Source: Caenorhabditis remanei (taxonomy: Eukaryota > Nematoda > Chromadorea > Rhabditida > Rhabditidae). From it: DNA of 64,000 nt. The stretch covers positions 19,592,001 through 19,656,000 of the forward strand of contig NC_071331.1 of the NCBI RefSeq assembly GCF_010183535.1, read 5' to 3'. Of the stretch, positions 1-63,315 are shown in pieces. A model generated the notes under the pieces. It was not told where the DNA came from. It did not search any database and saw nothing but the letters and a program-made list of their open reading frames with translations. Both the position numbers and the translations under genes were made by a program. The stretch's first letter is position 1. Each line of letters starts with the position of its first letter.

Positions 1-893
1 CCCATGTCTAATTTCCTCGGTTTTCTCAACAATTCCTAATTTCCCTCCATTTAATGTCTCCGAATTGTTAGTAGTGTCAACTGCAGAGTACTCTCTCTCC
101 CATATCTCTTCTTTCTAGTAAAGAAAAGAAAAGAGAAGAACGCAGGCAATTTCCGTTTGTTTCTCCGCTCCGAAGATGCTCTCTCTACAATTATGTAAAT
201 CACTATATTCCATTGAACCCCTCTACTTCTTTTTGGTCCCCTTCCTCTCGTTTTTTCAAGATAAAAAGTGTCCGTGGTCGACCTTACTCGAAAATCCCAT
301 AAAAGTGCTTCCTTTTTGAAAAAAGTTTTCGAAGCATTTTGGAGATAGGAGGGGCTCAGATTGAACTAAATTCAGAGAAGAGTCATTTTGAAAATTGGAT
401 TAGAACCTTTTGGTCTTGTTCTAACAGGGTTCAGAATTTACTAAATAAGAAATTACTACCTAAAAGAAATAGATATCAAAGATTGGAAAACAATTAAGTT
501 AGCAATTTTTGAATTTTCGTAAACCGTAAATTTTATAAGATTTTTTGTTTTACATTTTTTCAAATAGTTTCTTACAGCATGTAAATATAAAATTAGCTTT
601 TTTGTTTGTCTAGTCTACGATTTTCCTCGTGCAAAAAGTTTCAATTTTAAAAAATCATCAAAGAAAGGAATAACGCCGTTAACTGAAGAATATAGAAATG
701 GCTAATTTTATTTAACTTTATGAAACTTTTTTCAACAAATAAGAAAATGATTCTTGAAATATAATTTTGCTACTACTCTCATGCATTTCCAAAATTTCGC
801 CATAATTATGATAATTGTTAGGAATTCGACCCAAAATACATTTTTACTGTTTCAATTATTTTTGGAAGCTATTCAACTAATTGCCTTTGTCAT

Positions 894-914
894 TCTTTCA
901 TCAGTTTCTTATTC
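894..914 (+). ncRNA. predicted 21U-RNA
   Basis: The octamer at 847-854 is followed by CATT, whose final T at 894 lies 40 nt past the octamer. Prediction from motif spacing only. Confidence 0.4.
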
Positions 915-1062
915 TGAAAATTTAGAAACATGCCCTTAATTTTCAGTTAGCGTTTACAATGCTTCTGTTTTTTAGTCAATAATAAAAATTGATGAAGCAG
1001 ATTTTTTCCAAGTTTTACTGTTTCAAGGAAAACTTGAACATCGAAATGTTATTGTTCCTCAT

Positions 1063-1083
1063 TCTCTTTGGAAATTAACTTTT
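1063..1083 (+). ncRNA. predicted 21U-RNA
   Basis: The octamer at 1018-1025 is followed by CATT with its T at 1063, 38 nt downstream. Prediction from motif spacing only. Confidence 0.4.
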
Positions 1084-1803
1084 TAAAGAATTTACGCCAA
1101 AATAAATATCGAATTTCTATTTCGTAAAAAGAGAAGATACTCAACGATTTTGCCCAGATTCATCAAAATATATGTTCTGTCTGGAACAGTAATCTGTTAG
1201 GAGGATGTAACTATTTCCATCTACTCAAGAACAAAAATACTCCTAACTATCAAAAAAACCTGAAACAGAAAAAGAATGTAATATCTTGGAAAACCATTGT
1301 AACAGTATTAGCTAGAATTTGAAATAGGACTTTTGAGACGGTTTTTCTCAAAAATTTACTGTTTCAGAAAATAATTTTCAATCGCAGCATGATCAAAACA
1401 TATTCGTTTTCTATTGTCGTAAGACATATTGTCTTCTGATTTAAAATTAAAATTGAAATTCGAAATGTATCTTATCAAAAATAATTAGTAGACCAAACAC
1501 TAATCCCTTCCTCCTATCATAATAGTTCTTTTTTTGAACTTTTTGATATTTACACGTTTCTCCAAGATACATCGATATTTGATATCTTTGAGATTTTACA
1601 ATCTTGACCTGAAACAGTAAAAAATGAGAGTAGAGTAAAATGGATACTGTTTCAAAAACATAGTTTCTACGAATTTTTTCCCAGATATGAATTAGTTTGG
1701 TATTCTGACAGTTCTCAAATTATTGGTCACTTTTTATTGAGAAATCTTGAAAAATTACTGTTTCAACAATTAACAGAAGAAGGTTTCAAACTTCATTCGA
1801 TAG

Positions 1804-1824
1804 TTTACGATTTTCAAAATCTCT
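1804..1824 (+). ncRNA. predicted 21U-RNA
   Basis: The octamer at 1758-1765 is followed by TAGT with its T at 1804, 39 nt downstream. Prediction from motif spacing only. Confidence 0.4.
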
Positions 1825-1958
1825 CACTATGCAGAACCTCCACCGATATCCTACCAATCCTGAAAAAATAAGTATTAGAAACTTTTCTACGTGATCTGCA
1901 ACTCAAAAAAAACTGTTTCAGAGAAATAACATTTCGGGTTTTTATAACTGACATGTGA

Positions 1959-1979
1959 TAGGATCATAGTATTATATAC
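1959..1979 (+). ncRNA. predicted 21U-RNA
   Basis: The octamer at 1913-1920 is followed by TGAT with its T at 1959, 39 nt downstream. Prediction from motif spacing only. Confidence 0.4.
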
Positions 1980-2653
1980 GTTTGACAGAAATTCAAGAAT
2001 TTCATAAAAAATCACTACCGTAATTTTGTCTTTTGTGTGGCAATTGGTTGTTTAAATTATCCACCCTATCTTTTTAATCCTTTTCTCTTACTACATTAGT
2101 ACTAATTCTGAATTTTCCGATATTGTTTTCATACTTTTCAAATACTTACAGAGAATAATATGTATTTATTTGAAAACAAAACTGTTTTATTTCACTGAAA
2201 AATAGGCAAATTCATGTTTAATTTAGCTTATTATTCAATGCTAGAAAGTTCCTAAATCTATTTAACTTTTCTAACTTTTTTTTCAAAAATATACTGTTTA
2301 AAAAAATAGATTTTTGAAAGCCCAGAAATTTTACCCCAGTTTTCCAGAACTTTTCTCCTTGGACTGAGCCACAAAAAATACTGTTCCAGAGAAATAACAT
2401 TTCAGATTTACATAACTGACATGTGATTTTGATAAGCTTGGTCTTTAAGTACACTCATTAATTTTGTCAAAAGGTCAGAATAATTATTGTTTCAGAAAAG
2501 CCATTATGGGAATTCCGTTAATGCTGTAGTAATGATTTCATGGTTAGTGACCGAACTCTTAAATTATCAAATCTGACTATTTTGAATAATTTTTTAAAAC
2601 AAAGTTTACTGTTTCAAAACATAAAAATATAATTTTTTGATTTAGGCAGGTAG

Positions 2654-2674
2654 TGCTGTGTCTTTATTTTTCAT
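2654..2674 (+). ncRNA. predicted 21U-RNA
   Basis: The octamer at 2609-2616 is followed by TAGT with its T at 2654, 38 nt downstream. Prediction from motif spacing only. Confidence 0.4.
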
Positions 2675-2827
2675 CTTCTTATCTACAGTAGTACAGTGAA
2701 AACGGAAATCTTGAAAACTTTTCTGGAATTGCTGTATAGTTGCTGTTTCAGAAAATTTCACAATTCCCAAGTTTCACTTTGCACTCGACATTTCCAACTG
2801 CACTGTTAATATTTGAAAACTTTTATG

Positions 2828-2967
2828 TTAGCTCATTACAGTTCTTACAACTGCGCTCCTCCGAAATACCCTTGAAAAATGTCTCTCTTTCTCTGAGTCT
2901 CTCAATTTCGCACACTATTTTCTGTGGTTTCGGTAGAGCGCGGTTGTAAGAAGCGTGTCGTGCTAAT
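2828..2967. mobile_element. Short inverted-repeat element (MITE), copy A
   Basis: A roughly 140 bp element whose ends are inverted copies built around CTTACAACTGCGCTC and GAGCGCGGTTGTAAG, with a CT-rich middle (TCTCTCAATTTCRCACAC). Two relatives lie at 6512-6648 and 15692-15837. Outer limits are approximate; flanks are TTAG/CTAA-like. Confidence 0.7.
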
Positions 2968-5134: not shown

Positions 5135-6511
5135 ATTTTTTACAGTTCCAAACTTTTCACATAAATCCAATGAACCCGCTTCAATTCATTTGTTGAGTTT
5201 CATCCATCTCAAAATTGTTTTTTCCCCAGAAGAAAAAATCCCCCAAAAAATGAGTAATCTTTATGAAAAGGCCGAGGGAGCAGAGAGCGGTTCATTTGAA
5301 TTTACAATGAGATTAAGAGAGCAGCTCCGTTTTATTTTCATTTTTGGGTTGAGGCTCATTTCATTTTTTGGTCAAAAAGAAGAGATGGGAGAAGGCATTT
5401 TTATTTTGGAATTTAGATTCGAGATACGTATTTGAAATCCTCAAGAAATCTACTGTTTCAGTAAAATTTTAGTTTCACAAAACGCAAAATTGAATAGAAT
5501 GATAGCCATACAATAAAAATCACTTCAATCATATGTTTTCCGTCTCTATTCTGAATCTTTTTGTTTTCTATACTATTACTATTCACAATAAAAACTGAAA
5601 TGTTGACACACTTTTGGAAAAAAGGTGAAACAGTAAAATTCCTCACTTTTTGAAACTGTATTAATAACCCAAAATTGACTGCGGCACGGTTCTTGAAGCT
5701 CCGCCCATTACTAGCGGCAGTGTTAAAAAACTGAATTTGACAGGAAGCTCTCTATAACACTTTTCCCTGAAAATATACTTTCTATAATAGCAAAAAAACC
5801 GAGAACAACAAAAAATAGCGTAGGCAGATTAAATGATGCAAACGGATTAGTTCTCAAATGTAAGAGATCTGTTTTCTTTGAGCTACAAATATGTATATAG
5901 CTTGGTCATTCGGTTTTTTTCTGTTTTAAAGCTATTAAGAAAAAGTCTTTAGGAGTTCAAAGAGGTGTTATATTATCTCTGTTTAAACTTTTCTACTAGT
6001 GGTTGCAGAGAGTTGAAACAGTAGATTTTTTCTGTTTCAATAAGTTTACACAATTTTGAAAAATGCGTCTCCGTCACCCCAGCCTCTTCTCGTAAAACAT
6101 CCATAGAACAGAAAAAGAAAAAACATATAGTATTTTGAAGTGGTGTACATTTGTGGGGGTAGTAAATTGTCTAGTTTCTAGTTGTTTCCTTCTTCTTTTC
6201 TTATTTTGAAAGTGTTTCCATAGGAATCAAGAAATCATGTTTTGCGTGTTTTGATTTTGTTTCAAGAGTTATTCCATGCCAAACGTTTGTAGGAACTCAT
6301 AATAAGTTATCACCAAAAATTGAAACAGTAAGTTATTTCTGAACATACTAGGTATTAACTAATAGTAAGAAGTATTACTTAAATTATCTGTTTATACTGA
6401 AACTGTAATTTTTAACGGTCGAGACTTTAAAAAAGGGGTTTCCAATGTTATATCAAGTGTTGATGCTTTTTGAAATTACGGAAATGTAATTTACGAAACA
6501 GTATATTTTAG

Positions 6512-6648: not shown

Positions 6649-7322
6649 AATTCATCTATAAACTTTTAAATTTAAAAAAACAAGTTGAATTGAGTTGCAG
6701 CACTAGATGGCAAGAATTTTTAGATTTTTAGTATTCAAAGAAACAGTAATTTTTAGCATATTGTTTGGAAAATTTAAGTGAACACGTAAGTGAGCACATT
6801 GAGAAGTCCCATATTTTTGAACAATTTTGGTTGAAACAGTGAAAAAATCTCATCCTTCAAAAGTATGTTAGATATGCTAGTTTCAAACAAAAACTTGGAA
6901 TTTTTCACTAAATGCAACGTATTCTCTCAATAAACTAAAATTGCTTTTTTTTTGGAATCTAGTGTTTTTGAAACAGTAAAAAACATAAAAATCACTTACT
7001 TCCCACAGATTCTATGTACTATTAAGTGGAACACCAGCATGTGTGGTGAGGGTTCACATGACTCAATTTTCAAGTACCTGTAATTAATTTCTTCTTGTTA
7101 TATTGTGTGTTTCACATTCCAATGTGGGATGTAAATAATTACTGTTTCAATAATTTCAAAAGTTTATTTCTGGATTTTCTGAATTGTTTCGCGTGGTCTT
7201 ATCAGGGCAAGTTAATTTTTCATAAAATGGTCAAAATATGACTAAAAACATTGGATTTGTCAATTTTTTTGGGTACTGTTTCAAGGAAAACTCATGTCTG
7301 TTCATAAGATTCTTATCTTTAG

Positions 7323-7343
7323 TTTCTGATCCAATGCTTCTTG
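7323..7343 (+). ncRNA. predicted 21U-RNA
   Basis: The octamer at 7276-7283 is followed by TAGT with its T at 7323, 40 nt downstream. Similar predictions of equal weight start at 1404, 7188 and 7415. Confidence 0.4.
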
Positions 7344-10184
7344 TCATAATTCTAAATACATTTTTTACTGTTTCAATACATTTTAAACTATTTTCCTACT
7401 TTCCTCGCCCCCAGTTTTCACATGGTATCGTCAACATTTTTTCTATAACTCGAAAACTCTGAAACCTTTCCCATTTGACATCATGTGAAATACCTTGTGT
7501 CAACCCATCTTCCATCTCATATTTCTCTGTTTTTTGCTCTCTCTGTTCCCGCTCCAATAGTTCCATTTTCCTTTAGGAGACAAGGTTCGATGATCTACCT
7601 AACTAGGATTCCGTTTTTCAGAATTCTTGGTTTTTTTAAGAAGGAAAAAAGGAGACTCAGAAATCTACTCGCCCAGAATAAATGCTTGGTAGTTTTCCAG
7701 GAATTTTATACGACTTGAATCTCAATTATATTTATTTTCGGGGCTGAAATAGTCGGAGAGGAGGAATGCCATTCTTTAAGTACAGGGACTTGTTGGAATT
7801 ATATAGGTATTACCTGAGAAAGCGCGGAAGGTGCGCCAGATGTAATTTATTTTGAGAAAAGAAGCAATGAAAACATTTATACTGTTATCAATATCAGTTT
7901 TTAATGAAATAGAAGATTTTATGATGCGTTTTCCTGGAAAATTTTGATACGGCAAAACTTCAGGGCCTAAAACTTCTAGTGCCCACTTCATTTTACCAGA
8001 AACGCTATTCTGATGAAGCAATGAAGCATTAAGGAATTACTAAATGCTTCATTCTAGTCAAGTTTAAAAAAAATGTTGGAAACAATAAAACATTAACTTT
8101 AGAGATTTCTGAGATTTCTGAAAGTAGTTTTTAAACCCGGATGTTTTCAAACTTAAATTAGTGGGAACATTCGAATGAAAAATTCTGTTTCAAAACTAAA
8201 TAAATGGGACGTTCATATTTTTTCAGTTATTATGATAAGAGTTTGAAATACACTAATTTTCAATTTCCAAACTTTCTGAAACAGTAAATCTATAAGAAAC
8301 GGCTTCAGGACGTTTTGAAACCAGACACCAGACGTTTTGTTCAATTTCAACATGTCCGGTTTTGAAATGTCAATGTTCAAAAACACCCGGCACAAGAAAT
8401 TTTAGGCCTTCTTTTTTTTCAATTTTTTTTCCTGTTTCAAAATTTCATGGTTTTTTTCTCTAATGTTCTTCCAATATTCCCATTTTTCCTATATATTTCA
8501 ACCCATCACATATAAATACCAGCCATCATCAGTCCATTTCATTTTTTGACCTTTTCTGGGAAAATCTCCTCCTCTACCCCTATTTATTACTTTTCTCCTC
8601 CCACTTGACCAGTTCCTAACTTTTGACCGGAAGAATCGAGTGCCCAATTTTAATCAATTATTCCACGTCTTCTCAAGAAGAATTCTATTGAGAAACACGG
8701 CTGCAGACCTGAGAAGAAATCCGCGTGTGAGGGAGAGGGTATGAATTATTGCTGATGGCTTTCAGACCTGCTTTTTTTTGGGAAATATGTTGAGAAAGTT
8801 GTGGTGTGACCATAATCAGACTAAAATTTTCAAGCCCTAAAATCTCGGTCCACCATGTAACATTCTAATTTAAATAAATTTTAAGACAGAAAATAAAAAA
8901 TTAATTTTTGACCTTGATTTTTGTTTTTTTTTCTTCCTTGAACCCGTTTTCCCTAATTCAGAAGAAGTCATCTGAATTAGAGAAGCATGAATTTCTGTTT
9001 TCTTGCTCTTTCCTCTTCTTCAGAAGAAGAAATTCTTCAGAAAAAAATGTAGTCGTCATCGTCAGGTGAGAGATTATCACTTCCTGATTATTTCTTTGCT
9101 TGACATGTCTCCTGTTAGGTGCATTTTTTGACCAGACGTGCAAATTTTGATGTGATGTTTTACATGTTTATTTTTGGATTTTTTTAAAGGAAAATTGAAA
9201 AAAACGGAACTGTAAAAATCAAGAATAGCTTTTGAAACAGGGGAAAAACGTTTCTCTAATTCCAATAAAATTAAGAGCATCAATTTTTTCGAATGTCTAA
9301 AACTAAGAAATTTATCTGAAACAGTATTTTTGAAAGTTTTTCTTGTAAACACTAGAACGTAAACAATACTGTTTAAATACCGTAAATCTTTCAATTCCAC
9401 TGAAACAGTTCATAACTTTTATGCTCTGACATCTACATATGACTCACGAACTTTCTCAGGATCTCTGAATTCTCCGTTCCATACAAAAAGTGCTTTTGAT
9501 TCTCTATGAAGAATTAATTATTCTCCTCACACAGGATGAATAATTACTCTGGGTGCTCTTTTACTGAAAATTCGAAATGAATAGAAATAGAAGGGAGAAC
9601 GAAAGTTCGGGCTTCATTACCCATGAAGTTTTAGAAAAATTTACTGTTTCAATATTTTTCCGAATGTCTTACTTGTATTTAAACCAACTCGTTACTCTTT
9701 CGGCCAAGAGGTTCTTCACTTTGTGATAACGCGCCAACGACACCCTAGACTCAATTTTGAAGTTTTCAATTTCTATGTTCTGTCTAAAAACCTAACTGAA
9801 GAATCCGTAACGATCTGAAAAAAGTTGAAAACATTTCAATTTTTATACGGTTTCAATAATTATATTTTTTTGACGTCTTCCAGAGTAGTTTAGTGATATT
9901 GGGGATCGTGAAATTTCAATAATTGAAAAAACAACTCACTTTTATTGTTTCGAGCATTTATTTTAATACTCAAATACAAAAAGTTGATAGGACTCCTAGA
10001 TTTAGTGGAAGTTTCGAAAACGCGCCGACTTCACACCAGTTGTCAAAAAATTTACCGTTTTAGCAATTCCATAATATTTTTTGAAAACCATCTTTGTCAG
10101 TAAATTCCCTGTAGGATTTATAAAAAATTTCATTTCTCAAAGGAATAATTGATTTCTACAAACTAAATTTAAAGAAATCTAAAT

Positions 10185-13238: not shown

Positions 13239-15598
13239 CTGTTTCAAAAATAATTAAAGTTTCCATCAACATGTAGTTTTTCTATTCTTGCGCTGTTTCT
13301 GTTGCTTATTTTCAAAATTTCCATTCAAAGCGGTTTGCCTTTCTAATGTTCAAATAATCCCAATGTTCTCCTGAAAAAGTAATTTCTCTCAAAGAGGTGT
13401 TTATTTAATTCAACGTGAATTAGTTTTTTGATCGATTATTCAACAAAACCAATGCGAAAAATAATAATCGATACCGGTTTGAAACGAAGCATTCAAAAAA
13501 GTCTTTGTATATATTGTTTTCGGTCAAAATAATTATTTTGAATTTCGAATTCGAGACTTTCTGTTTCAAAAATATCTAAAAGTTTCTTTATCGTTTCGTG
13601 CCTGCAGTCGGAAGCGTTTGGTGTAACAATATTTAGTTTCTGTGCCAAAAAAAACTGCTGTTTTCTATTTTTGTTTTATGAAAATACTAGTTTAAGTATT
13701 TACTCAATAATTACTCAATAGTTAAAACACTAATTAGAAATCGATTGGGAAAGTATTCTGAAAATCCCGTAATTCCAAAATTAGAGAAGTAGAAAAAATC
13801 TACTGTTTCAGTAGTCATCATTAGTTAGATTCTGATTTAATTTATATTTCAATGCGTATCCGTGTTCGATATTAACGAAACAAAGAAACTGAATAAAAGT
13901 GGGCGGAGCGTATTCAAATAAGTTTTTTTTAGTAAGCAGTTTTAATAAAAATCGAACTATTACTTCGTCTAGTATATATTTGTTTTTGGGTTTTCATTGA
14001 AACAGTAATACACTTTACATTTGTTTTTGTTTTTACTGTTTCAAGAGCCATTCAAATTTTTCAGCATAAGTTTCCTTCTTAATCTTTTAATATTTTTCAA
14101 ATTTGTGTCAAACAGAAATTTATGATATATAGTATGAATATCTAGTTAGAGACAAAATGAGAAATAGTTCATTTTTCTGTTTCAAATATTATCTTTGTCT
14201 ACCTCAGAATGGAAAAAATGTTAGCCCTACTTTTTTGAAAACTGTCCATCAGTTCCTCTCAAACTGTATAACTTCTCAAAAAAAAAATCTACTGTTTCAG
14301 GGGTGTGGGTTATATAGACTTTCAAAGTATACTTCAATTAATGTCCTTTTCTCCCACATCAGTTTTTTCTCTAATAATGAAAGAAGCATAAATGGGAGGA
14401 GCTTGTTTGAAAAGTTTTCTCTAATCTCAACTTTATATTTCAAAATTATGACTGACTTTTTCGAATAAAGTCAAGTATTGCTAATGATAAAATCTTCATA
14501 ACCTGTTTCGGTTGTCCATCAACACAACAACTCAGTTGAAACTGTGGAAGTTTCAGTGAAACAGTAAATTTCCATAGAAATCTCATGAAATTTACTGTTT
14601 CAATATTTTTCGGTTAGAAATAGCATAAATACACCGTTTGATTTTGAATTAGGACCACGAAACTGTTTTGATATAAAAGAAACATCATAAAAGTGGATTG
14701 AGCGCAACCATAAAAGTTTTGAAAAAAAGAATGTGAAACGAACTTAATATTGCCTTCTTACAATTTTTAGTCTCAGTTTCTGACTGAAACAGTAGTGCAC
14801 ATTTTGGATATTTCAAAGAAAAAATAAAGTATATCAAGCAAATAACACTCGTTACGAAAATATTTATTGTTGAAACAGTAGAATTTTTACTGTTTCAACG
14901 TATATCGTTTAGCTACAGAAATCATTGCCCATTAAACATTTTTTGCTAACAACAATCTAGATAGTTGCCAGAACAAACAACAATCTATGTTTTTATTTTA
15001 ATGCATTGACGGAAGCAATAATACACTTTTTGTTTTGTTTATAATTTTACTGTTTCAAGGCGTGTTCTAATTTTTCATCGGAATTGTGCTCCTCACTATT
15101 AATGATTTAATTTCTACATTATTTTCTTTTTTCACATTCTCTTTGGATGCTGTTTTCTTAAATGAGCAAGTTTCACCAGAAACCAGAAATATTAGCGATT
15201 TTAATGAAACAGTATAATATTGGAAAACGTTAAAATTTCTCACTGTTTCAAAAATCTCAGATTAGAAATGTTCATAACCTGCTTGGTCGCTTGAGCCATT
15301 CCTTCCTTTCTCATTTGTGTCCAGCTCCATAATTCCCATTGACCCCTCATACCTCTATTTCTCTCCCTTCTCTCTCTCTCTCTCTCTCTCTCAATTACCT
15401 TCTGTTTCAAACCCAAAAATCACAATTTTCTTCTCTGTTTGTTTTTCGGTTTACTCACTCCTAATTGTCCTTCTCTTTCTTTTCTTCCCCAACTTTTTCT
15501 CACCGTTTCATCTGAAGAATGAAATTTGAACTGTCACATATCAAGTTGATTTTTACAATTAGGCTTTTGGATATTTTCTGCAAAAATATGCTGTTTCA
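13239..15598 (+). promoter_or_regulatory. 12 plus-strand 21U-RNA promoter octamers, 13.2-15.6 kb
   Basis: CTGTTTCA starts at 13239, 13561, 13803, 14036, 14177, 14292, 14595, 14890, 15050, 15243, 15402 and 15591. At about one per 200 bp this is one of the densest stretches in the window. No protein gene is supported between the 12 kb transposon and the GPCR at 16.4 kb. Confidence 0.85.
13998..15212 (-). promoter_or_regulatory. 5 minus-strand 21U-RNA promoter octamers, 14-15.2 kb
   Basis: TGAAACAG starts at 13998, 14557, 14785, 14871 and 15205. Several form divergent or convergent pairs with plus-strand octamers only 19-40 bp away (13998/14036, 14557/14595, 14871/14890, 15205/15243). Confidence 0.8.
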
Positions 15599-21430: not shown

Positions 21431-21481
21431 CTTCTCGAGAGTCCTTCGAAAGATTGATTTACCATGTACTTGAATTAAAGA

Positions 21482-21824
21482 GGAGAGTGAGAGAGAGGGT
21501 GCAGACAACGAGAGTGTCTAACTTCTCTGCGTCTCTCCTTAATTTGATGGTTTGTATCTCATGACTCAAAATAGCTACAAACATAAAAAATATACAATTG
21601 AACGCAAAATGTCACGTAGATCATTTTTATAGTTGACAACTTTTTTGTATCTCTTCAGCCTTTTGTGATCACGCGCTTCGAAGTTAAGACGCAGACTGCT
21701 AGACACTCTCGTTTCTCTGCGTCTCTCTCTCTTTCTTCTAGAACCTTTCGTTTACTTGAAGTAATGAGAGACTAGAGAACACAGACAGCTAGAGTGTCTG
21801 CATCTCTGCACCCTCTCTCTCTCC
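21482..21824. mobile_element. Inverted-repeat element in the GPCR 3' flank, long form
   Basis: The ends read GGAGAGTGAGAGAGAGGGTG and, inverted, TGCACCCTCTCTCTCTCC, each followed inward by an inverted copy of GAGTGTCT. It starts about 50 bp after the GPCR stop codon. The equivalent element behind the second GPCR copy (29493-29647) is about 190 bp shorter, so the interior was gained or lost after duplication. Confidence 0.6.
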
Positions 21825-23115
21825 TTGTCTACTTTTCCCCATAATTTCCCGTGATCTCGATTAATCGTAAGAAACAATATCTGTAGTTTTCTCTCTCTCA
21901 TCCTTCATTTCGTGTTCTCTCATTTTTGTATAGGCAATAATTTGGTATTTGTGTCCAAAAGAAACTTCTCATACCGGTATGTTCTTATTCTAACTTTTGT
22001 CATGAAGAATGATGTATTTATCGTTATTTTGCGAGTTTTCTTATTTCATTCGTTTATTTGATTTAAATGAAATGAACAATATTTTCACAAATTTAGAAAT
22101 AGTTTTTTGCTATGAAAATTATTCTTTCTCCTGAACCAGTGAAACAAATATTTAACGGATGCAACCATTGCGGAACACTTATTAGTTATAGCAAGATTTT
22201 ATTATGGACATTTTGAAACAGTAAAACTTGCCCCACAGAGTGATGTGAGTTTCCTGACGGAAATGCACCTCTTTACCACTTTTCCCCTTATTAGTTGTTT
22301 TGTTGAATAATTCTTGCCCTAACCGTCAAAATGTTTCTTTCAAACTTTGGATAAAAACTTGATTGGGTGACCAAAGTAACAATAGCATCCAGAACACAAT
22401 TTATACAGTACGCAGTCGAAACATTACGAAATTATGGACAAATGAGGTGAAAAATTTCTGAAACAGTGAAAAATATCACTTGGTTACTGATTGTTCAGAA
22501 GCCGCCGAACTTTCTCTTGCAAAAGTTTTTTTTTTTTACTGCTGAAACTAAAACCAACCCTACTAAAGTAGACAATATAATTAACATTATTGAAAAACTA
22601 CTTTTAAAATGATGAAACAGTAACATTTTTCAATCGAACAGAAGATGTGACATTACCCTTTGATATAACTCTTATTATTAGATACAATTTTTGATTAGTT
22701 TATAATATTCAATAGATACAATAAATAATTTTCTCACTTCAAATATTGCAGTAAAGTTATACCTCATACTTGCATTTCCAGCCAAAATAAGAAAATATCA
22801 ATTCAAAGTATTTCTCTAGTTTTACTGTTTCAATATTATTCAAATGTAAGGCAGTAAACAAAACTGCTCTGTTACTTATGTTTCAGTTTTGAAACAGCAA
22901 AAAAAGTACCTAAGATTGTAGAGAGAATTTAAACTCAGCCCTATTGAAATTCAAACTGTAGAATCAGTAAAATTTGGGAATAAGTATGTACTGTTTTGCC
23001 AAAATGGAACTAAAACAATTTTGGTTAAGTTGAATATGTTCGGGTTTTGAAACTGGAAAGTGAACATTTTCATAAACTTTGAAATTTGCATCAGAAGAGC
23101 CACATCAAATAGAAG

Positions 23116-29441: not shown

Positions 29442-29492
29442 TTTCTCGCGAGTCCTTCGAAAGATTGATTTACCATGTACTTGAATTAAAGA

Positions 29493-46900: not shown

Positions 46901-47816
46901 AAAACGGTTTGTCTGGAATTTTGGATTTCTGTACAAAAAACACACTGCTGAAAAAAGGAGAATTAAAGACATAAATATTAAAATTTTTTGGAATATTCTG
47001 ATTGAAACAGTAAAGTTAAAAAACGAGCACATTGTCAAATATCAGTTCTAATTATCGCATGAAACAAATGTCAGCATTTTAAAAGCTGTTAATTTGAAAA
47101 TTTGCGGTTCAGTTGTTTCTGGCCAACCCAGGGAGTAGTACTTCAAAATTCCATATCAAAAACTAGGAAGCACTACACTAGGAATCCACAATTTTAAACT
47201 GAATGATAAAGCTGCACGACAAGATTAGAAGAAATGAGAACGTCAGTTATTTTTGAAATAGTAATTTTCCGATAAGAAATGCCAGAGGAAGACAGAATGA
47301 GCAGCCACGGTAATGATTTGGTACTGTAGTTTTTTGATTCGCGGTTTTATGAACATATCACAAAGTGAGTACTGATTGAAAACAATTTTCTGAAACAGCG
47401 AAAAAAGTTGGGAATGAAACTTGGAACAGCTAGGAAGATTTGAAATCACTAAAAAATGGGGCATTTTCTGCTCATGTCAAAATTTCAAGGTTACGAAGTG
47501 TCTCAGTTTCCAAATGCCTGGTTTTGAAATGACCTGGTGTCTTATAGTTAGAAGGTTGGAGACAAGACTGAACTGATGTGAAATTTGAACCGTATCTAAA
47601 GTTGGCTTCAAACAAAAACAATCCAGTGAAAAAAACCCGGTTAGGCCTACTGTAATTCACCAGAGAGGGTTCATAACATGCTGTAAATCCACTCCGAGCT
47701 TCGTAAATCACCACTGAATTTTTGTTCAAGAAGATCTAAAACAGGTCATTTTACCGCTTTATTGAAACTTGATAAAAATGATAAAGTGATAAAATTGTGT
47801 TGAAACAATACAAAAA

Positions 47817-49986
47817 TTACTTATTTTTCAACTCCCAAATCTCCTCCTCCCGTGCAATCAGTCGATCCTTCAACTCTCTAATCTGCTTCTCGTACCCAGC
47901 ACTGTCTTGTTGTCTCGTCATCTCATTGCTCTCAAAAATCATACTAATCTGCTCATTTGCAAATGCCAATTCCTGTTTTGCCTGCTCCAGCTCACTTCTG
48001 GTCAGTTGCAACTCTTCTTCCAGGTTTCCAGGATCTCTTAATTTTTTCGATTTTTTAACTTTTTTCAGTTGTTTCTTCAAGGTTGCCACCTCCCGATTCT
48101 TCTCTGCCAACTCCAATTTCAAGTTCTTAACCTCGTAAGTCAGATGAACCTCAACAGGATCATCTGAATCCATCAATGACATGTTCTTAGTCTTCTCCTC
48201 CATCAAATCCGCCTTCAACTCCATCATTTTCATCTTCAATTTTTCGTTTTCCTCCATCAACTTCTCATCCGCATCCTCTTTGATATAATTTATCTTTTTG
48301 TCCTTGCTTGCCTCCAGTAACATTATTATTTCATCGTGTTGCTCTTCGGTTTTCCGTTTTTCTTTTTCGAGCTCTTCATTTTTTTGTTTCACTTCGAGAA
48401 GTTCCAAATGGAGACTGCTTTGCTTCAACAATGATTCGTAGACCTTCTCGTCTTGCTCAACAATACAGTAACGGAGATTGGCCAGCTCCGCTTGAAGAGA
48501 TTCGATTTCTTTTCTGAAATTGTAGTGGTTTAAAAAAAAAATTGTGAGAAAAACACTATCCAACACAACACAACTTTAATTTTTATTTTTATTTTTTACT
48601 TGAAACAGTAAAATTAAAATAAACGTTTGAAAGTGGACCTGCTAAGCGATAAGATGTTTACCTAAGGTTGAGAGTTAGATCTACTGAAGACCATTGTCAC
48701 ATTTTAGCACATTATTTCTTGAAACAGTATTTTTTAAAGTTTTGAAACAAATATTGTCTGCCTGAATCAAATCTGTAAGTTTTTGGAAAACACTGATCAA
48801 AAAACAACCAAAAATATCACGCTGAACTTTATATCCAAAATTTGAAACAGTAAAACTCTATACTGGTAAATGTATACAAAAACGTTTTGTTTACGGAGAA
48901 TTGCACTTTCTATCGTCATTATTGTGATATTTCTTACTTAAAACAGTAAAACTTTAGTTTTCAAAATTTCTGGCACCTACATCGTCGTCTCTCTTCAAAA
49001 TGAATCATTCAATTTATTTTTGAAACAGTAAAGTTTAGAAAAGTTTGAATGAAAATTATTTTAAAACATTGACTCAAAATGTTAATTCTGAAACAATGAT
49101 ATTACGATATGCTCTACTAAATTTCCAAAATTTTGCTAGTGCTCACGCGGTGAATAAGATAAAACGAATGTTACTAATCAGAATTCTGACTAAGAACAAT
49201 TATAGTGAATCAGTACTTTCTAAAATCTCCTAAACTTGATAATACTATCATTGAACCAAATGAAAAGTGGATATTTTTGTTTTGAAACAGTAAAATTAAA
49301 ATTTTTCACAAAGTTGAACAAATTTCAGTTAGTTTTTTTACTCAACACTTTACAAATATGTTTATGACATTTTATGATCTTTTAATTTTGAAGTACTATT
49401 TTTCAAATCAATAATTCCTATTCCAGCCCAACGCATATCAGCAAAAGTTTGAACACTCAACAGTGCTAAAATTTTTTGAAACAGTAACTAACATATGTCT
49501 CTCCTCCACTGTTTCTGATTCATCCGTTGGTTCCATAAGCCAGTTCTCTCTGAAAATAATAATATCAAAATTGAAGAAGAAACGAAAAAAGTTTGAACTT
49601 CTCGGAAATTAATTTTTGTGAAACAGTACAATTTTCTTTCAAAAGGAATTAGAGTTTTGTATAAACGTTCCGGCTTATTCAGATATGTTTTGTCTAGCCA
49701 CCGTCCAATTACTCAATCAAAAAACCAAAATTTCTAAACAAAAATTTTGAAACAGTAATTTTTACCCACATTTTTTTCTGATCCTTCTTTGATACTGCTG
49801 TTTTTTCCGAGGTACCTGGTTGATCAGAATCGCTTTCCCTTGAATCTTGACTGGGGACCTGAAAATACATTTATATTTAGAAAAAAAACACGAAAATCTT
49901 GATCTTACCTGCTCATAATCACTGTCAATCTCAAAGTCGGAACTATCCGATGAGCAATTTTTTGCTCGACGGAAGAATTTGGACAT
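47817..49986 (-). CDS. Coiled-coil protein, four exons
   Basis: Exons (transcript order) 49986-49909, 49858-49770, 49549-49493 and 48513-47817 join in frame to 306 codons plus TAA. The ATG lies 3 nt behind TTTTTCAG, a likely trans-splice acceptor. The N-terminus is basic then acidic and Ser-rich (SSDSSDFEIDSDYEQ). The last exon is nearly pure coiled coil (ESLQAELANLR, LKLELAEKNREVATLKKQLK). No signal peptide, membrane segment or enzyme domain. The donor of exon 2 is chosen as GTGGGT because only that keeps the frame into exon 3, so this junction is the weakest. Intron 3 (979 nt) and the short introns contain several 21U promoter octamers. Not recognised; an intracellular structural or scaffold role is only inference. 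Confidence 0.7.
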
Positions 49987-50331
49987 TTTCTGAAAAATAA
50001 AATAAAATTCGGAGTTTTCAGTGTGAAAATCAATGAAAAACAACTGAAAATAAGGAAAACTGCCAAGAATTTATGTTTTCCCTTAAGCCCCGCCCATTTA
50101 TCTCCGAAGAAACATTGCGAAATTGAGAAAATTCACGTCATTCCGACAGAAAACATAGGAGATCCAGGGAAAGAGAAAAAGAAGAAGAGTGGAGCAGAGA
50201 AAAACAGAAAGAGCTATGCGCGTACTGTCGATACAAAAAAAGAGGGGTAAGAGGTGACCCGGGAAGAGGAGGGGGGACCATGAGAATGGTCCCGCCCGAC
50301 TGTTAATCTGAGGAGAGTACATAGAAAACGA

Positions 50332-50431
50332 GGAGGGCGCAGACAATATCGACCGAACCGTCGGACACTCTCGGGCGGTTATTAGGCGGACCATTCTGGC
50401 CAAGGAGACGGTTTTTATTTGTGCGCCCTCC
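50332..50431. repeat. Short inverted repeat GGAGGGCGCA ... TGCGCCCTCC
   Basis: Ten-base inverted ends enclose about 80 bp of GC-richer DNA upstream of the coiled-coil gene. Possibly a small MITE. The region 50,450-51,650 otherwise holds only two plus- and two minus-strand 21U octamers. Confidence 0.4.
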
Positions 50432-51015
50432 AAGACACCCTCTCCTAGACACCTCTCTTACTAGAGACATCTCTTAGCACACAGACAGAAAGCGCCTTAG
50501 TAATTATCGCTTCTTTACGGTTGACGCCTTCAAAAAATATTATAGTTTCTGTGTAGCCGTCCCGACAGAAAGTTATTTAAATATATATATAAGAATGATT
50601 TTTGAAAAATTAGACTAATAAAATTCAGAAACTTTGAAGCATGAGAAAACGTGCTGAAACAGAAATTTTCTGACAAAAATCTAAATTTCCGGTTTTATAT
50701 ATATATTTTTAAACTATTCTGATTCTCAAATCTGTTAGTTAACTCAGACAATAACCAAAGTTTAACTCCATACCAGCGCATCATTGCAGTTTTTCATCTA
50801 TTTTTAATTTTAAAAACGTTTTTAAAACGTGGAAATCCTGTGAGTTAGCGGTTTACAGCAAGCTTTTTATTTACTGTTCCAGAAAACTATTAATTTTGTG
50901 TATATTGTTTTAAAAAACTGTTTCTCCAAAATTACACATTTTATAGAGTTTTTGTGAAAATAACGTCTGAACGCATTGTCTTTCTATTTTTGTGCTAAAT
51001 TATTGTATTTTTTTT

Positions 51016-51556: not shown

Positions 51557-51978
51557 GAAAATTTTAGCATTGTTCAATTACTGAAGTTAAAGATTCACCA
51601 ATCTTAATTTAAGTATTTATTGAAAAATCTCACAGAACCGGTAATTAGAAATTAGATTTGGCAGTGGGAGGAAGTCGTGATAGCTGAAAGAAAAAAGTTT
51701 ATGTGTTGTCATTATATTACAAACCAATTTTTCAGGCAGTACCTCACGAAGAAACCTCAACGGATCTTAGGATTGGAATCGTTCCAAATTGCTACCAGGT
51801 TATAAGGAGAACTTGAATACACATATCCGAAATTTTGTTTTGTGTTCGTCACTTGCCTCTGAGAAAACCGTCTCAACGCTTTTGGAAGCCATTGTCAGAG
51901 TGCTGTCTCTCTTCCATTAGCTATTTGGAACGATTCCAAACTTGCGGGCCTCTGAGGTTCCCTTGTAAGAAGGATAAC

Positions 51979-53736
51979 TCACAATTGACTGTACATTCTT
52001 AACTGAATGACTTGTGGCTCATCGTTATCATAATGATAGTCAATTGTCCATTTGTATAAGAGGGATCCGTTCAAAGGAAACCCACCTGATTGTGCAGTTC
52101 CATAGAGAGAGTACAATTGGTCACCCGGAAATTTAGTAACATAAGATCCATCCGTACTCGCAATTGTATAATTCATTGATACGAATGAATTGTCAAGTGC
52201 TGCAATAAGTAATATAGCTTTAACTTAGAAATTATTCTTACTGTGGTTTTGAATAGTTATTGCAAATAAACTATATTCTGTATGATTCGGTACAGAAGTT
52301 TTGAATACCGGTATTTCGATTCTACCCGATCCAGAAACCACAAAGTTTCGAGCAATGAATTGATAAGGTTTGCCAAGTATCCAGGTCATCTCGTCAAAAG
52401 CCTGAAAATTTGTCGTCAAAAACCGGAACGTACAAAACTAACTAGGGGAGGCCACGGGGTGACCGTGGAGTTATGGGTCGTGACCTATATCATTAGAAAG
52501 CTGAGAAAACGCGGATTCCAAATATACATTCAGTTTTTGCCCACGAGGCCTGATATTCCGGAAAAACAAGGTCAAAGTTCGGAAAAATTACTAATTATTG
52601 CCTTTCTGATACGCGAAAAAAAATTTGATTTTTTTTGCAATTTTCGCGTGTTAAAACGGCAATAATTTGTCATTTTTCCTAACTTTGACCTTGTTTTTCT
52701 CGAATAGCAGTTCTCGAGGGCAAAAACTGAATATATCGTTGGAATCCGCGTTTTCTCAGCGTTCCAATGATATAGGTCACGTCCCATAACTCCACGTTCA
52801 CCCCGAGGCCTTCCCTAGCAAGGTCAAAGATTTGAACGTTTACTACAGTGACTATGATTTGTTTCCAATTTTCACTTTTTCTTCAAGGACTCACATTAAC
52901 AAGGTCTCTGCCGCTGGCAAATACACAGTATCCATTGGTTTGCAGTGACATTTCGTATAGTGTTGCAGAGTTGGAACCGCCCGATGGATTACTGTCGACA
53001 GCTATGCGCACCGTCACACGATTGGCTCGTAGTTGGGATATGGTGTCAGATACGTCAGATTCATTTGGATACCGTTTTACAGCTATGAATACTTGGGCTC
53101 CACAAATTGGAACTATTTTATTGTTAAGAAACTTCTGAAATATTTGCTGAATTGGAGTTACTAGGGAAGGCCCCCGAGTAACCGTGGAGTTATTAGACGT
53201 GAAGCCTGGTATTTGAGAAAAATGAAGTCAAGTTTTTAACACGCAAACTTTAGCTTTGTTTTTCTCGAATACCAGACCTCGAGGGCAAAAACAGAGAATA
53301 CATCTGGAATCAGCGTTTTCTCAGCTTTCCAATATCACCGTCACGTTTCATAACTCCACGGTGTCTCGGGAGCCTTTCCTAGTTAGAGGAAAATAGTACA
53401 AACCTTCAAAACGTTGTACAAGTTGCTTTCAGTTGTTTTAACACCATATCCAAGTGATGGATCAGGTTTACGAGAAAATAGAGAATTATTCAAACTCCTG
53501 TAATGAAAAGGTCACATAAAACAGCAAAAACTGAAAAGAAACATACTTTTTATCCGAGTGATACTCAATCTCCTCTTCCTCTTTTGTGTCAAATCGAACA
53601 TTTGCCATTGTTGCATACATATCAGCATAGTGGACCATATTATGTACACCATACCAATATGTATCATAGTCGATATCAGTTGAATAAGCGTACAGAATTG
53701 TGTTGTTCTGATAAGGAAGACATGCGGCCGGTGGAA
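51979..53736 (-). CDS. Probable secreted nematode-specific VWA/CUB-like protein, 5' end not found
   Basis: Exons (transcript order) 53736-53547, 53497-53404, 53134-52895, 52401-52242 and 52199-51979 join in frame for about 301 codons ending in TGA. The first begins in mid-codon (phase 2) after ATATTTCAG, so at least one upstream exon with the start and any signal peptide is missing; I found none before the Helitron-like element at 56.1 kb. Features: YAYSTDID and NVRFDTK early, VFIAVKRYP, NPSGG and TNGYC in the middle, and a beta-rich C-terminus with several N-x-S/T sequons and scattered Cys. From memory these match nematode-specific extracellular proteins with VWA-like and CUB-like regions, some pathogen-responsive in C. 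elegans; family assignment is moderate. An alternative donor at 51,983 could join an exon near 51,680. Introns 2 and 3 each hold a MITE. Confidence 0.65.
52442..52818. mobile_element. Inverted-repeat MITE in an intron, copy 1
   Basis: 377 bp with inverted arms of about 140 bp; ends CTAGGGGAGGCC and GGCCTTCCCTAG. The arms share GTGGAGTTATGG, GAAAACGCGGATTCCAA and CAAGGTCAAAG. Sits in intron 3 of the minus-strand gene. Confidence 0.75.
53161..53382. mobile_element. Inverted-repeat MITE in an intron, copy 2
   Basis: 222 bp member of the same family (CTAGGGAAGGCC ... AGCCTTTCCTAG), flanked by TTA on both sides, which suggests a 3 bp target duplication. It occupies most of intron 2 of the same gene. 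Confidence 0.75.
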
Positions 53737-53759
53737 CTGAAATATTTTCAATGTGTTAG

Positions 53760-54566
53760 AAATTCTTTTTTTATTTTTGAATCTGAAATTAAATATTTAT
53801 TTGATTTTGTTTCCCCCCGCTTCTGATATGTGTCCCTATGATGAATATTAGTTCGGAAGGGAGGGGGTGGTAGAATAGAATATGAATAAGAGAAATGAGT
53901 GTGCAAGAAACACTTTCTTGTTATCAGTGAAGAGTCATAACGACTTTATACCACACTCGTAAAAGGTTAAAAAGGAGGAACAAAGAGAAAAAATTGGAAA
54001 GTAGTCGATAAATGTCGCCTGTTTTCCTCTCTCCCTTATTGATTTTCCCACACTTATAATGCAATCTAACAGTGTAATTGTCCGGTACCTACCGGTTTTA
54101 TCTCTAAAAAGTCCATAAAGTCATGTCAAGTTTCAGACAGCTTGGGCCTTGTGTTAGGTCGTTTTTTACCCGTTTTGTCAAGTTTCGCCCGTTTATACTT
54201 TTTGGGTGGTTTTTAGTCACCTTTTTTCTATTGTTTTCTTTGTCTAGTAGGCATTAGTTTTTATTCAAATTCCAACCATTTTGTGTAGCAATTGTCTTGT
54301 TGGCAATTGTAGAAATTGAGATCAATAAATTAGTAGTTGACTCGAAAACTTGTGTTTTATTGATTTCTCGTCTTTGCGCTTATTGTCTTTTCACCAGAAG
54401 CTAGCGTGACACCGTTGTCACGTCTAACTTTCTGACTTAATAAAACATTTTCGGACAAATTATTGATGATTTTTTTATAACAACTAATGAAAAAACTTTT
54501 TTAGAAAAACAATAAGCACTTAGATTTGTTTTAAAACGGAAAAATAAATCTCAAAGAATTAAACCA
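53760..54566. other. Gene-free flank; possible regulatory or LTR-like remnant
   Basis: No exon with a signal peptide could be found here for the gene ending at 53736. The interval 54,110-54,430 has AATAAA, TTTTATTG and an inverted CGTGACA/TGTCACG pair that could belong to an old LTR, but no clear TG...CA ends or target duplication. Confidence 0.3.
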
Positions 54567-56131
54567 TCTTTACTAATAATATTCAACAGATTCCGTTTGT
54601 CCGTTTATTTGTTGCACGCCATAACTCCCTTCGTAGAGGACCGATTTTAATGAAACCTGGATAAATGGATTGGAAATTTGACTTAGATGATGCCCGAACT
54701 TTTCTTTTTTCAAAAATATCAAATTTGACGTCTTCTGGAGACGATGAGGTTTTTAGTGCTAAATTTCGTTGAAGAGGGTGTGTCCCGACAGGGTGGTAGA
54801 AAGCTCAAAGTACCAACCTAACACTACTGACTCGATGTTTCTTGACTGCACTCTCGACAGGCGCGGGCCGCGCGCGTGTGGTGTAGTGGTCTACACAGAT
54901 GACTCTTACGCATGGGGTGGCGAGTTCGTTCCCATCAAATTAGAAATATTTTTTTTTGCTTTTTTGTTATGGGAAAGTAATTTATTGAGGAGCTTTTGGA
55001 TTTAAATGGAGGGAAAAACAGTGACTATGTTAAAAAAATTTGTCAATAAGTCTGCTCCGCATCTTGCATTTGAGAGAAAATTGAATGAAAATTTGGTCAA
55101 GAGCCCGAAAACTCCCGTTGGCTACGGGTCAAAAGATTACCGTAATCTTAGAATTCATATTTCATCATGAACGCGCCAGACCGATAGCATTCGGTATTTT
55201 CGGATTCGAAAGTTCTATTTGAGATTTGAATACCGCTCATCAGTGCTGTAAAATTTTCGATAGGGGAGCCGGAAGAAGGAAGAGGGAAGTACATTTTTGA
55301 AAAAGAAAAGCGGAAGAAGGAAGTCAGTCAAAAATTCCAAAATGTTTGTAAACTTTTTTGAAAGTCGGAAGTGGCAAAAAAGTTTCAACGGAAAACTGAA
55401 GCGGAAAGTCGGAAGTAAATTTTCTAAAAAGGAAAGTCGGAAGAAGGAGGAAGAAAGTGAAATTTTCAAAAGGGATGTCGGAAGAGAGAAGAAGGAAGTG
55501 AAAAAAGCCCGGAAGAAGAAAGAAGGTAGTCGGAGGAAGGAATTCCGCACAGCTCTGCCGCTCACATACATAATGGGAATCAAAGGAACCGGGAGACCAT
55601 GTTTTCTGATAGCGAAGCCTAAAATAAATGGAAGACCACTACTCAAGAAGCTGATATGTGAATAAGGACCCGTCGTAGCTCGGTTGCCTACAAAAAAATT
55701 ATGAATTCTTGGATGAGAATTTGTTAAAGCACCGTCTTAGTCTGCCATATTCCGAGAAGGGAGGCGGCGTTGCCGCCGATCAGTTAAAAATAAAAAATAT
55801 ATCGACTTGATCACTCGCCTTTTGGGAACGGAAGAAAGAAAAGTTATCAAGTTCAAGTTCTTCTGTGAGATTGTTTTGAAATGAGGAAAACATAGGAAGA
55901 AAGTTCAAATCGGTAAATTCAAAAACAGCTCATTCTAAATTCCATACTCTATCAGGATAGAAAAAGTCATTGAGAAAGTTTGTAGAATTTGAGTCTGAAA
56001 AGGAGAGATTTTACAATTGTGCTTTATCGGAATGAACTGCTCGACTAAGAAGCGCCGCAGGCGCTGTAAAACTGAGAAGGGTGGTGTAGGGAAGGAGGTT
56101 TAGTCGCCGTTAGGCGACGTAAACCGACTGG
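54567..56131 (+). mobile_element. Non-autonomous Helitron-like element, copy 2
   Basis: Starts TCTTTACTAATAATATTC after A and ends ...CGACTGG before T, exactly like 34377-35873, with the same terminal GTCGCC-GTTA-GGCGAC hairpin and internal GGCGGCGTTGCCGCC and GCGCCGCAGGCGC hairpins. The middle (about 55,250-55,570) is a purine-rich AAGCGGAAGAAGGAAGTC array not present in copy 1; the 122- and 143-codon frames there are low-complexity artefacts. Confidence 0.75.
54876..54938 (+). repeat. tRNA-like segment inside Helitron-like copy 2
   Basis: TGGTGTAGTGG (matches the A-box pattern), GACTCTTACG and GAGTTCGTTCCC in order, as in copy 1. GTGTAG/CTACAC can pair as a D-arm-like stem; the other arms are poor. 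Confidence 0.4.
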
Positions 56132-56145
56132 TAATTAAATGTTTA

Positions 56146-56243: not shown

Positions 56244-56386
56244 CAGTTTCCATGATAAACAAGGTATCTGATGAGTTTTTCAATGCGTGTCTCATATCCG
56301 TCGTTATTATGAATGCTATTCAAAAATATTTGGGTTTTTTTTACTCGAATTTTTATCCATCGAAACAGAAAAAAGTAAACTATTTA

Positions 56387-61606: not shown

Positions 61607-61731
61607 AAGGATGGATGGGAAGTCTCATTCACTATTTCTCCCTCTTTGTTTTTTCACCTCACCCCTCCCGCTCTAGACCAATCGGCCTAGCCCTCCTTTG
61701 ATTTTATTGATTTTCAAAAACGACCTTACCA

Positions 61732-62136
61732 ATGTCGTCGTCTTCATCTTCTGCTATTTCTTCTGTTTTGGGACTCAAAACTGATTTGGAAAAGAAGAGA
61801 GCTGAGGTCCAGAATCTCAAAGAGAAATTGAAGAAGGTCCAGCTGGAAGAATCGATACTCAATCAGAAATTGGATATAGGGGAATTTGAAAAAATAGAGA
61901 TTTACAACGATTTAGTGAAGAATGAGAAAGAGATGAAAGCTAAAAATATGCGAATTGACGAACTGAAATCCCACATTCGTTCCGCGGAGAAACTGTTTAA
62001 GAAGCAGCAGAAAGAGATCGATATGCTCCGTGCAGCTCAGGAACAGAAGAAGGAAAATCAGAAACTCTGCAGCTACGGCGAGTCCTGTTGGAGATTCGTT
62101 CAAAATATCGAGAAGAATGAGAATAGTATTTTGTAG
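61732..62136 (+). CDS. Short coiled-coil protein, single exon
   Basis: 134 codons. It starts with a Ser run (MSSSSSSAISS), then a nearly uninterrupted heptad region (residues about 16-115: LEKKRAEVQNLKEKLKK, MKAKNMRIDELKSHI), ending RFVQNIEKNENSIL. No signal peptide or enzyme domain. AATAAA at 62387-62392 is a plausible poly(A) signal. Tandem paralogue of the gene starting at 63703: both follow a conserved CTAGACCA..GGCCTAGCCC promoter-proximal block and TTATTGATTTTCA. Here that string continues AAAACG, so the AG acceptor seen in the paralogue is lost. This copy may be translated from an unprocessed leader, use another acceptor, or be decaying. Confidence 0.6.
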   Translation: MSSSSSSAISSVLGLKTDLEKKRAEVQNLKEKLKKVQLEESILNQKLDIGEFEKIEIYNDLVKNEKEMKAKNMRIDELKSHIRSAEKLFKKQQKEIDMLRAAQEQKKENQKLCSYGESCWRFVQNIEKNENSIL

Positions 62137-62221
62137 ACATGTAATAAGAAGGAGGGATTCTATGGACAATAGAGAGAGATTAGGTTACGGAATCTCTTTT
62201 TACCTCATAGTACTCTCCCAT

Positions 62222-62224
<3 letters not shown>

Positions 62225-62319
<95 letters not shown>

Positions 62320-62321
62320 TC
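62225..62321. repeat. (CT)n microsatellite
   Basis: About 97 bp of CT repeats with one CTAT interruption, in the probable 3' UTR of the coiled-coil gene. Confidence 0.95.
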
Positions 62322-62714
62322 CTACAGTATGCCTCAATCTTGGCCTACAGTATTCTCAAATATCATTACTTTAATTGATTGGTTTTAATAAATCAGTTTC
62401 TTCTATAACTGTTTTCATTTATGGGCAATTAGTTACACTTCATTTCAAGCACAATTAAGTATGATTAAGAAGGCCTGACAGCCAAAAATTACTATTTCAA
62501 ACAAACGTGACATATTTAGTATGAACTTATTGCTAATTGAAGCAGGATCGAAACTATGTTTTATGAATCTGAAAACAAGTAGACATTTTTTGCATAAAAA
62601 TCTGAACAGTACCAAGAGATATCAATGACTCCATTATAACTTAGCTATCAATTTGTACAGTTTCAATAGAATACAAAAACTACAATTTCGACAAATACAA
62701 AAGTTTCTTTCATA

Positions 62715-63016
62715 GCCATTTCGCAACTACGACACTTCGCAACCACGACGTTTCGCAACCACGGCGTTTCGCAACCACACCGCATTTGCATATTTAGGTC
62801 AGTTGAAAATGTTGAAACCGAAGGGTCTGGGAGCATATTTGAAAACATTAAATAGAAGAAAAAGTTATCTGACCCATTTTTAGACAAAACTAGGTTAAAC
62901 TTGCTAGTTCTATGGTTGCGAAACGCCGCAGTTGCGAAATGTCGCAGTTGCGAAACTTCGTAGTTGCGAAATGTCGTAGTTGCGAAATGTCGCAGTTGCG
63001 AATTGTCGCGGAGCCC
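62715..63016. mobile_element. Inverted-repeat element with GTTGCGAAATGTCGC arrays
   Basis: The left arm (62715-62778) holds about four CGCAACCACGACGTTT-like units. The right arm (62914-63016) holds about six inverted GTTGCGAAATGTCGCA units and ends CGCGGAGCCC. Same architecture as 41289-41498 with a different spacer word. The frame across it (62663-63046, -) is repeat translation. Confidence 0.65.
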
Positions 63017-63110
63017 TAAATTGATAGTAATACGATACATTTTCAAGTTTCAAAACGTTGCGTTCACAAGATCCCTATTGATCTTTCAAATTGTTTAAAA
63101 AATAGATAGT

Positions 63111-63118
63111 TGAAACAG
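63111..63118 (-). promoter_or_regulatory. minus-strand 21U-RNA promoter octamer
   Basis: Isolated TGAAACAG followed by GAAA rather than TA, so a weaker match to the extended consensus. Confidence 0.45.
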
Positions 63119-63307
63119 GAAAAAAAATTTTGGCTGTTTTAAAAAATACTGAATTCGTTTTTATATTTATTCGAACCTGGTTATCGAGATAAAATTCAGT
63201 TCTTAGAAGAAATGCACGTTGTTAACAAACGAGAAAAAACTGAAAAGTTTCACTGCTCTAACATGCTGTGCTTAAAAATTATAGCTTACTCAAAATGAAA
63301 AAAGTGA

Positions 63308-63315
63308 CTGTTTCA
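63308..63315 (+). promoter_or_regulatory. plus-strand 21U-RNA promoter octamer
   Basis: Counterpart of the octamer at 61413 in the duplicated flank. Confidence 0.65.

Follow-up and report, generated by a model that had tools for sequence, protein, structure and literature searches.

The window analysed here, a stretch of 64,000 nucleotides from the nematode Caenorhabditis remanei, corresponds to chromosome IV:19,592,001-19,656,000. It carries 173 exact copies of the octamer CTGTTTCA, the Ruby motif of type-I 21U-RNA genes, that is, genes for PIWI-interacting RNAs (piRNAs), small RNAs which protect the germline of the worm. In the reference strain PX506 the right arm of chromosome IV starts at 17.1 Mb (Table 1 of PMC10461856) and the window is therefore located on this arm. 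Copies of the octamer are found on both strands (82 on + and 91 on -) and spread over nearly the whole window, from 847 to 63,315, exactly as the original prediction, which took the window for a field of piRNA mini-genes, had claimed. Judging from the letters, the window very probably belongs to a dense type-I 21U-RNA cluster.

In order to estimate a background, the number of octamers expected on both strands was calculated, and amounts to 4.4 with an order-1 Markov model, 7.6 with order 2 (trinucleotide content), 13.2 with order 3 and 31.6 with order 4, the latter null already containing much of the motif itself. When the strands are pooled, CTGTTTCA is the most frequent 8-mer of the window, while the reversed octamer used as a control occurs twice. 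Over the whole genome (130,466,896 bases), 19,000 octamers are found compared to 6,781 reversed ones; only these totals are used, since the octamers listed for C1 seemed uneven between strands beyond about 0.5 Mb. Hence, the octamer density is 2.70 per kb in the window and 0.146 per kb in the genome; it is not equal to that of the rest of the genome, an equality which the original prediction had named as its refutation, and represents 18.6 times the genome mean. The two gaps also announced there reduce to a single large octamer-free one of 4,597 bp, the next largest being far smaller at 1,826 bp and followed by gaps of 1,736, 1,701 and 1,698 bp. Within the large gap, the G+C content of positions 52,001-56,000 is 37.9%. 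Scanning the window against Rfam and for tRNAs yielded no matches.

If the octamers act as 21U-RNA promoters, a YRNT initiator (Y, pyrimidine; R, purine; N, any base) is expected at a fixed distance from them; offsets are given here as the position of the T of YRNT counted from the octamer start. Of the 173 octamers, 51 have such an initiator at +46 and another 47 have it at +47, against a background mean of 13.8 of 173 (standard deviation 3.8, maximum 26) for offsets 12-120 outside 43-50. Together, the two positions hold an initiator in 98/173 cases versus 26.7 in the control, and a YRNT anywhere at 44-49 is present in 146/173, compared to 66-82/173 in eleven control windows. This excess over background suggests that true units make up between about half (from offsets 46/47) and three quarters (from offsets 44-49) of all octamers. 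The spacer from the end of the octamer to the T predicted to encode the 5' U measures 38-39 nt and falls inside the range of about 35-42 nt described for C. elegans in PMC3597512. Furthermore, the account of C. briggsae piRNA loci in PMC9683057 places Y and R at -3 and -2.

The octamer is also embedded in a biased flank. In the window the preceding base is A in 132/173 cases, the three bases ahead of that A are mostly T, and A is again preferred after the octamer (103/173), followed by G (46/173). The share of G is above base composition, as it would be if most CTGTTTCAG sites were 3' splice acceptors of the worm type, TTTCAG, marking introns. However, A is the usual following base, and sites of the form CTGTTTCAG bear the initiator themselves (20/46 versus 7.2 in the control), as do those of the form CTGTTTCAA to a greater extent (61/103 versus 15.5), so that we regard the splice site explanation as extremely improbable.

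In addition, 24 single-base variants of the octamer were scored for the initiator. The highest z scores were obtained for CCGTTTCA (4 of 5 sites, control 0.7, z 4.2) and CTGTTTTA (9 of 19, control 3.0, z 3.8), and six further variants reached z 2.0-2.8 on 2-12 sites. The variant ATGTTTCA has 9 sites versus 8.3 expected (z 0.8) and TTGTTTCA 24 versus 13.0 (z 1.2). Given 24 tests on few sites, these values yield no conclusion. Variants starting with A, G or T total 35 sites, 10 of them with an initiator versus 5.4 in the control.

Table 1. Features of the window, with positions counted from its first letter; units run from the octamer to the end of the 21-mer.
Feature	Position	Strand	Remarks
Predicted type-I 21U-RNA (piRNA) gene field	847..63315	both strands	173 CTGTTTCA and YRNT peak at +46/+47
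Example predicted unit	847..914	+	T at +47; one of 98 with YRNT at +46/+47
Example predicted unit	1758..1824	+	T at +46
Example predicted unit	5567..5633	-	T at +46
Example predicted unit	6909..6976	-	T at +47
Example predicted unit, first of tandem two 92 bp apart	7276..7343	+	T at +47
Example predicted unit, second of tandem two	7368..7435	+	T at +47
Divergent octamer pair	14557..14602		octamer starts 38 bp apart
Close divergent octamer pair	14871..14897		octamer starts 19 bp apart; one of nine at <=43 bp
Longest strand run, 21/21 octamers on -	44469..50662	-	strand-run count
Sole large octamer-free gap	51557..56145		between octamers at 51,549 and 56,146; repeats; higher G+C
Segmental duplication block A	17600..22450		7tm receptor gene, 13 octamers
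Segmental duplication block B	25680..30280		14 octamers, 10 in common with block A

The spacing of the octamers on one strand has a lower limit. Indeed, the closest octamers sharing a strand in the window lie 59, 69, 69, 70, 70 and 75 bp apart, with one case only below 69 bp, a limit situated just beyond the end of the predicted 21-mer. Same-strand pairs at 9-68 bp number 1 versus 19.5 expected by local jitter (0 versus 11.3 at 9-43 bp and 1 versus 8.2 at 44-68 bp), and a gentler null with fixed positions and shuffled strands still gives 6.0 pairs over this range (5.0 and 1.0; P = 0.002 for the 9-43 bp bin). As the unit from octamer to 21-mer end is 67-68 bp long, a neighbouring unit may start at the end of the previous 21-mer. 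The same limit is seen outside the window at IV:19.482-19.490 Mb, where 34 octamers in 8 kb show no same-strand spacing below 70 bp. These observations bear on the possibility that the octamers are sites for forkhead-type or small nuclear RNA-type (SNAPc) factors regulating genes rather than piRNA units. Forkhead proteins do bind a CTGTTTCA probe in vitro, as described in PMC3597512, and according to PMC6436959 the Ruby motif derives from the SNAPc promoter element. However, a fixed initiator at +46/47 together with a 69-bp spacing limit would not be expected of enhancer sites, and we give this possibility hardly any credit.

On opposite strands, divergent octamer pairs at <=43 bp are more numerous than expected (9 versus 3.3, P about 0.005), and the octamers of the window form 63 strand runs versus 87.3 expected (standard deviation 6.5). 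The spacings of the divergent pairs, 18-23 and 37-43 bp, resemble those found at IV:23.70 Mb (18-20, 37 and 40 bp). Common descent was considered for these pairs and set aside, given that by eye their sequences differ beyond the core. A divergent pair related to those near IV:23.6-23.7 Mb is likewise present at C2:1.14 Mb, and again on C79.

We examined twenty evenly stepped 10-kb stretches of chromosome IV as controls. The eight located between 2.9 and 12.0 Mb contain 50 octamers in total, 0-9 per stretch, with a YRNT at 46/47 in 25 versus 6.6 in the control. Eleven of the remaining twelve hold 0-7 each (16 in total); 7 of these 16 are in the stretch at 18.5 Mb, 4 with the initiator versus 0.8. 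Closer to the window, IV:19.482-19.490 Mb has its own YRNT peak (11/34 at +46 versus 2.4), and IV:19.70-19.71 Mb has 7 octamers, all within its last 3 kb, of which 4 have a YRNT at +47 versus 0.6. A second octamer-rich area on the same arm is of another kind. IV:23,700,001-23,710,000, the last of the twenty stretches, displays 50 octamers in 10 kb and tandem repeats whose period reaches 279 bp, and its octamers follow one another on the same strand at distances of 20-60 bp; a YRNT is found at +44 in 8 cases versus 3.5 in the control. At IV:23,598,001-23,606,000, with 33 octamers in 8 kb, YRNT counts of 4, 4, 3 and 6 at +44 to +47 against a control of 2.5 make a peak that is weak at best.

Several observations weigh against the assignment of the window to a piRNA cluster. 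In the window, 27/173 octamers have no YRNT at 44-49, and the A/T-rich dip downstream of the 21-mer is small (G+C of 25-26% between +20 and +34 from the U versus 27-33% at control YRNT sites). Seven octamers lie inside 5 of the 11 stop-to-stop frames that were checked, such frames extending beyond exon ends; the octamer at 19,716 stands directly before a likely splice acceptor and reads as intron. That the field spares coding exons, as the original prediction has it, is plausible. Moreover, the two duplicated blocks (Table 1) are identical at 4,062/4,391 aligned bases, with 83-94% match by piece, and their octamers are intact in the partner block in 10/13 and 10/14 cases, compared to 2,662/4,153 (64%) identical ungapped 8-mers; no clear purifying selection or excess conservation of octamers was observed between them. 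As for piRNA sequences themselves, PMC9683057 describes fast divergence between species. Finally, the 50 octamers of the 23.70 Mb stretch show an initiator at 46/47 in only 4 cases versus 8.6 in the control. Thus, octamer density alone is no proof, given that this stretch is dense without the +46/47 initiator, and it is the initiator that decides.

This repeat-bearing stretch on the same arm also lends itself to another explanation, in which the octamers of the window would be components of some dispersed or tandem repeat and would not act as promoters. Self-similar segments do make up 35.5% of the window and hold 59/173 octamers. However, a YRNT at 46/47 is found in 62/114 octamers outside self-similar DNA versus 17.3 in the control, a peak as strong as the one inside (36/59 versus 9.4), so that the initiator peak is not repeat-derived and the explanation is nearly refuted. 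Furthermore, a single octamer of the 173 overlaps a tandem array, 159/173 are left after removal of the block at 25,680-30,280, and by eye the flanks of the nine divergent pairs are unlike one another beyond the core. The signature of the octamer-bearing repeat, namely dense octamers, no +46/47 initiator and 20-60 bp same-strand spacing, is not that of the window. Taken together, a repeat origin is very unlikely.

A PIWI-clade Argonaute exon is present in the C. remanei genome. A search for PF02171 gave 67 matches, among them an exon on C3 whose eleven best matches among solved structures are all Piwi proteins, with E values of 3.1e-38 to 2.6e-31, the next being HrAgo1 (9.8e-19) and Argonaute-2 (1.8e-16). 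Three loci on C1 (L041, L043 and L046) are very similar to this exon (L047) in their letters. Owing to this resemblance there may be four PIWI-clade Argonaute loci, L047 alone having been compared with solved structures. The Argonaute locus L040 was rejected as a Piwi candidate, its best match being Argonaute-2. The reading of the window as piRNA mini-genes is thus largely supported, as the octamer, flank, spacing, initiator, mixed strands, position on chromosome IV and PIWI-clade exon all fit it, with the reservation that some of the octamers may not be units.

We propose a working unit of about 68 bp, which would consist of an A/T-rich flank, the Ruby octamer CTGTTTCA, a 38-39 bp spacer to the T corresponding to the 5' U, a YR initiator at positions -3 and -2 relative to this T, the 21-mer and then slightly A/T-richer DNA. 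By analogy with published work on C. elegans and C. briggsae, the motif would be recognised by the USTC complex (PRDE-1, TOFU-4/5 and SNPC-4), whose role is treated in PMC6468775. RNA polymerase II would start at the YR and produce a transcript of about 28 nt, the precursor length given in PMC6436959, and the trimmed 21U-RNA would be loaded onto PRG-1 and survey germline transcripts. According to PMC3597512, units of the male germline are distinguished in C. elegans by the C at the 5' end of their octamer; since this is so and variants starting with A, G or T are few in the window, we predict that the units of the window would be expressed mainly in spermatogenesis.

That C. remanei makes 21U-RNAs and that these cluster on chromosome IV in Caenorhabditis is already known. 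The review PMC6468775 attributes to this species 2-3 times more 21U-RNAs than to C. elegans, and describes their features, from small-RNA sequencing, as largely identical to those of C. elegans. The type-I clusters of C. elegans, which PMC9683057 places on chromosome IV at 4.75-7.5 and 13.5-17.5 Mb, share with the window the CTGTTTCA octamer, a spacer within about 35-42 nt, the YRNT initiator and the chromosome. A partial literature search yielded neither a map that places piRNA clusters on the assembly of C. remanei nor a mention of the 69-bp limit. The present analysis places a very dense piRNA cluster on the chromosome-scale assembly of an outcrossing Caenorhabditis and offers predictions at the level of the unit, with 98 candidate 21-mers.

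The window flank TTTACTGTTTCAA is stronger than in the sampled stretches on the left of chromosome IV, which was less expected, as were the dense octamers lacking the +46/47 initiator at 23.7 Mb and the want of any clear excess conservation of octamers between the duplicated blocks. The octamer is preceded by A in 18/50 cases on the left side versus 132/173 in the window (P = 2.8e-7), and in 30/34 at IV:19.482-19.490 Mb, 6/7 at IV:19.70-19.71 Mb, 4/7 in stretch L023, 32/33 at IV:23,598,001-23,606,000 and 44/50 at IV:23.70 Mb. The initiator offset shifts weakly, from 45-46 on the left to 46-47 on the right (P = 0.03). In the window the octamers are on both strands of chromosome IV, on which density was sampled, and two extended 17-mers are confined to this chromosome (13/13 and 8/8 genome matches), with 20/21 matches at 19.33-19.73 or 23.38-23.97 Mb; as both were taken from the window, they are biased toward the right side. 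A 14-mer for the left-type flank, with 16 matches of which 9 are on chromosome IV, was not used as a map, because three pairs of matches about 1.08 kb apart suggest a repeat.

A comparison can be made with the C. briggsae-specific cluster at IV 13.0-15.0 Mb, in which, according to PMC9683057, the Ruby motif is flanked on either side by strong A/T-rich motifs; the syntenic regions of C. elegans give no robust piRNA output. The window resembles it in having TTTA before and A-rich DNA after the octamer. For the C. briggsae chromosome I cluster, no counterpart was seen among 21 C1 matches of one pattern, which is a weak test. It is conceivable, if rather unlikely, that the right-arm cluster, with points at about 19.3-19.73 Mb, represents a promoter subtype distinct from that of left IV, with A before the octamer, an initiator perhaps one base further out and a near-strict 69-bp rule of one unit per slot. 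Under the same doubtful proposal it would perhaps fall into one class with the A/T-flanked cluster of C. briggsae, and perhaps owe its origin to an octamer-bearing repeat which is still present near 23.4-24.0 Mb and has hardly any initiator, if any. If true, such a subtype would show the birth of a piRNA domain, motifs first and initiators later. The left type, the right type and the dense stretches in which the initiator is scarce or absent, all three on the same chromosome, make a natural series for studying the origin of piRNA clusters, the last one warning that density alone can mislead.

Apart from the octamers, the duplicated blocks contain a 7tm_1 (seven-transmembrane) receptor gene in two copies, neuropeptide-receptor-like, at window positions 17,807-18,508 plus 19,483-19,935 and 25,848-26,552 plus 27,465-27,986; the C. 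remanei proteins CRE_16480 and CRE_21057 are among its best matches. Open frames that by eye look like coiled coils lie at 37,200-37,586, 43,645-44,073, 42,457-43,305, 47,817-48,575 and 61,711-62,136, no Pfam family being above cut-off for them, and those at 37.2 and 43.6 kb sit in segments 89% identical. Palindromic repeats, which match themselves in inverted orientation over 0.2-1.15 kb and may be remnants of transposons, are found at 12,031-13,180, 35,989-36,615, 52,442-52,818, 23,087-23,400, 23,404-23,742, 56,377-56,648 and 41,285-41,486. Finally, a run of 49 TC copies and two tandem repeats of 16 bp occupy 62,224-62,321, 62,719-62,778 and 62,915-63,009.

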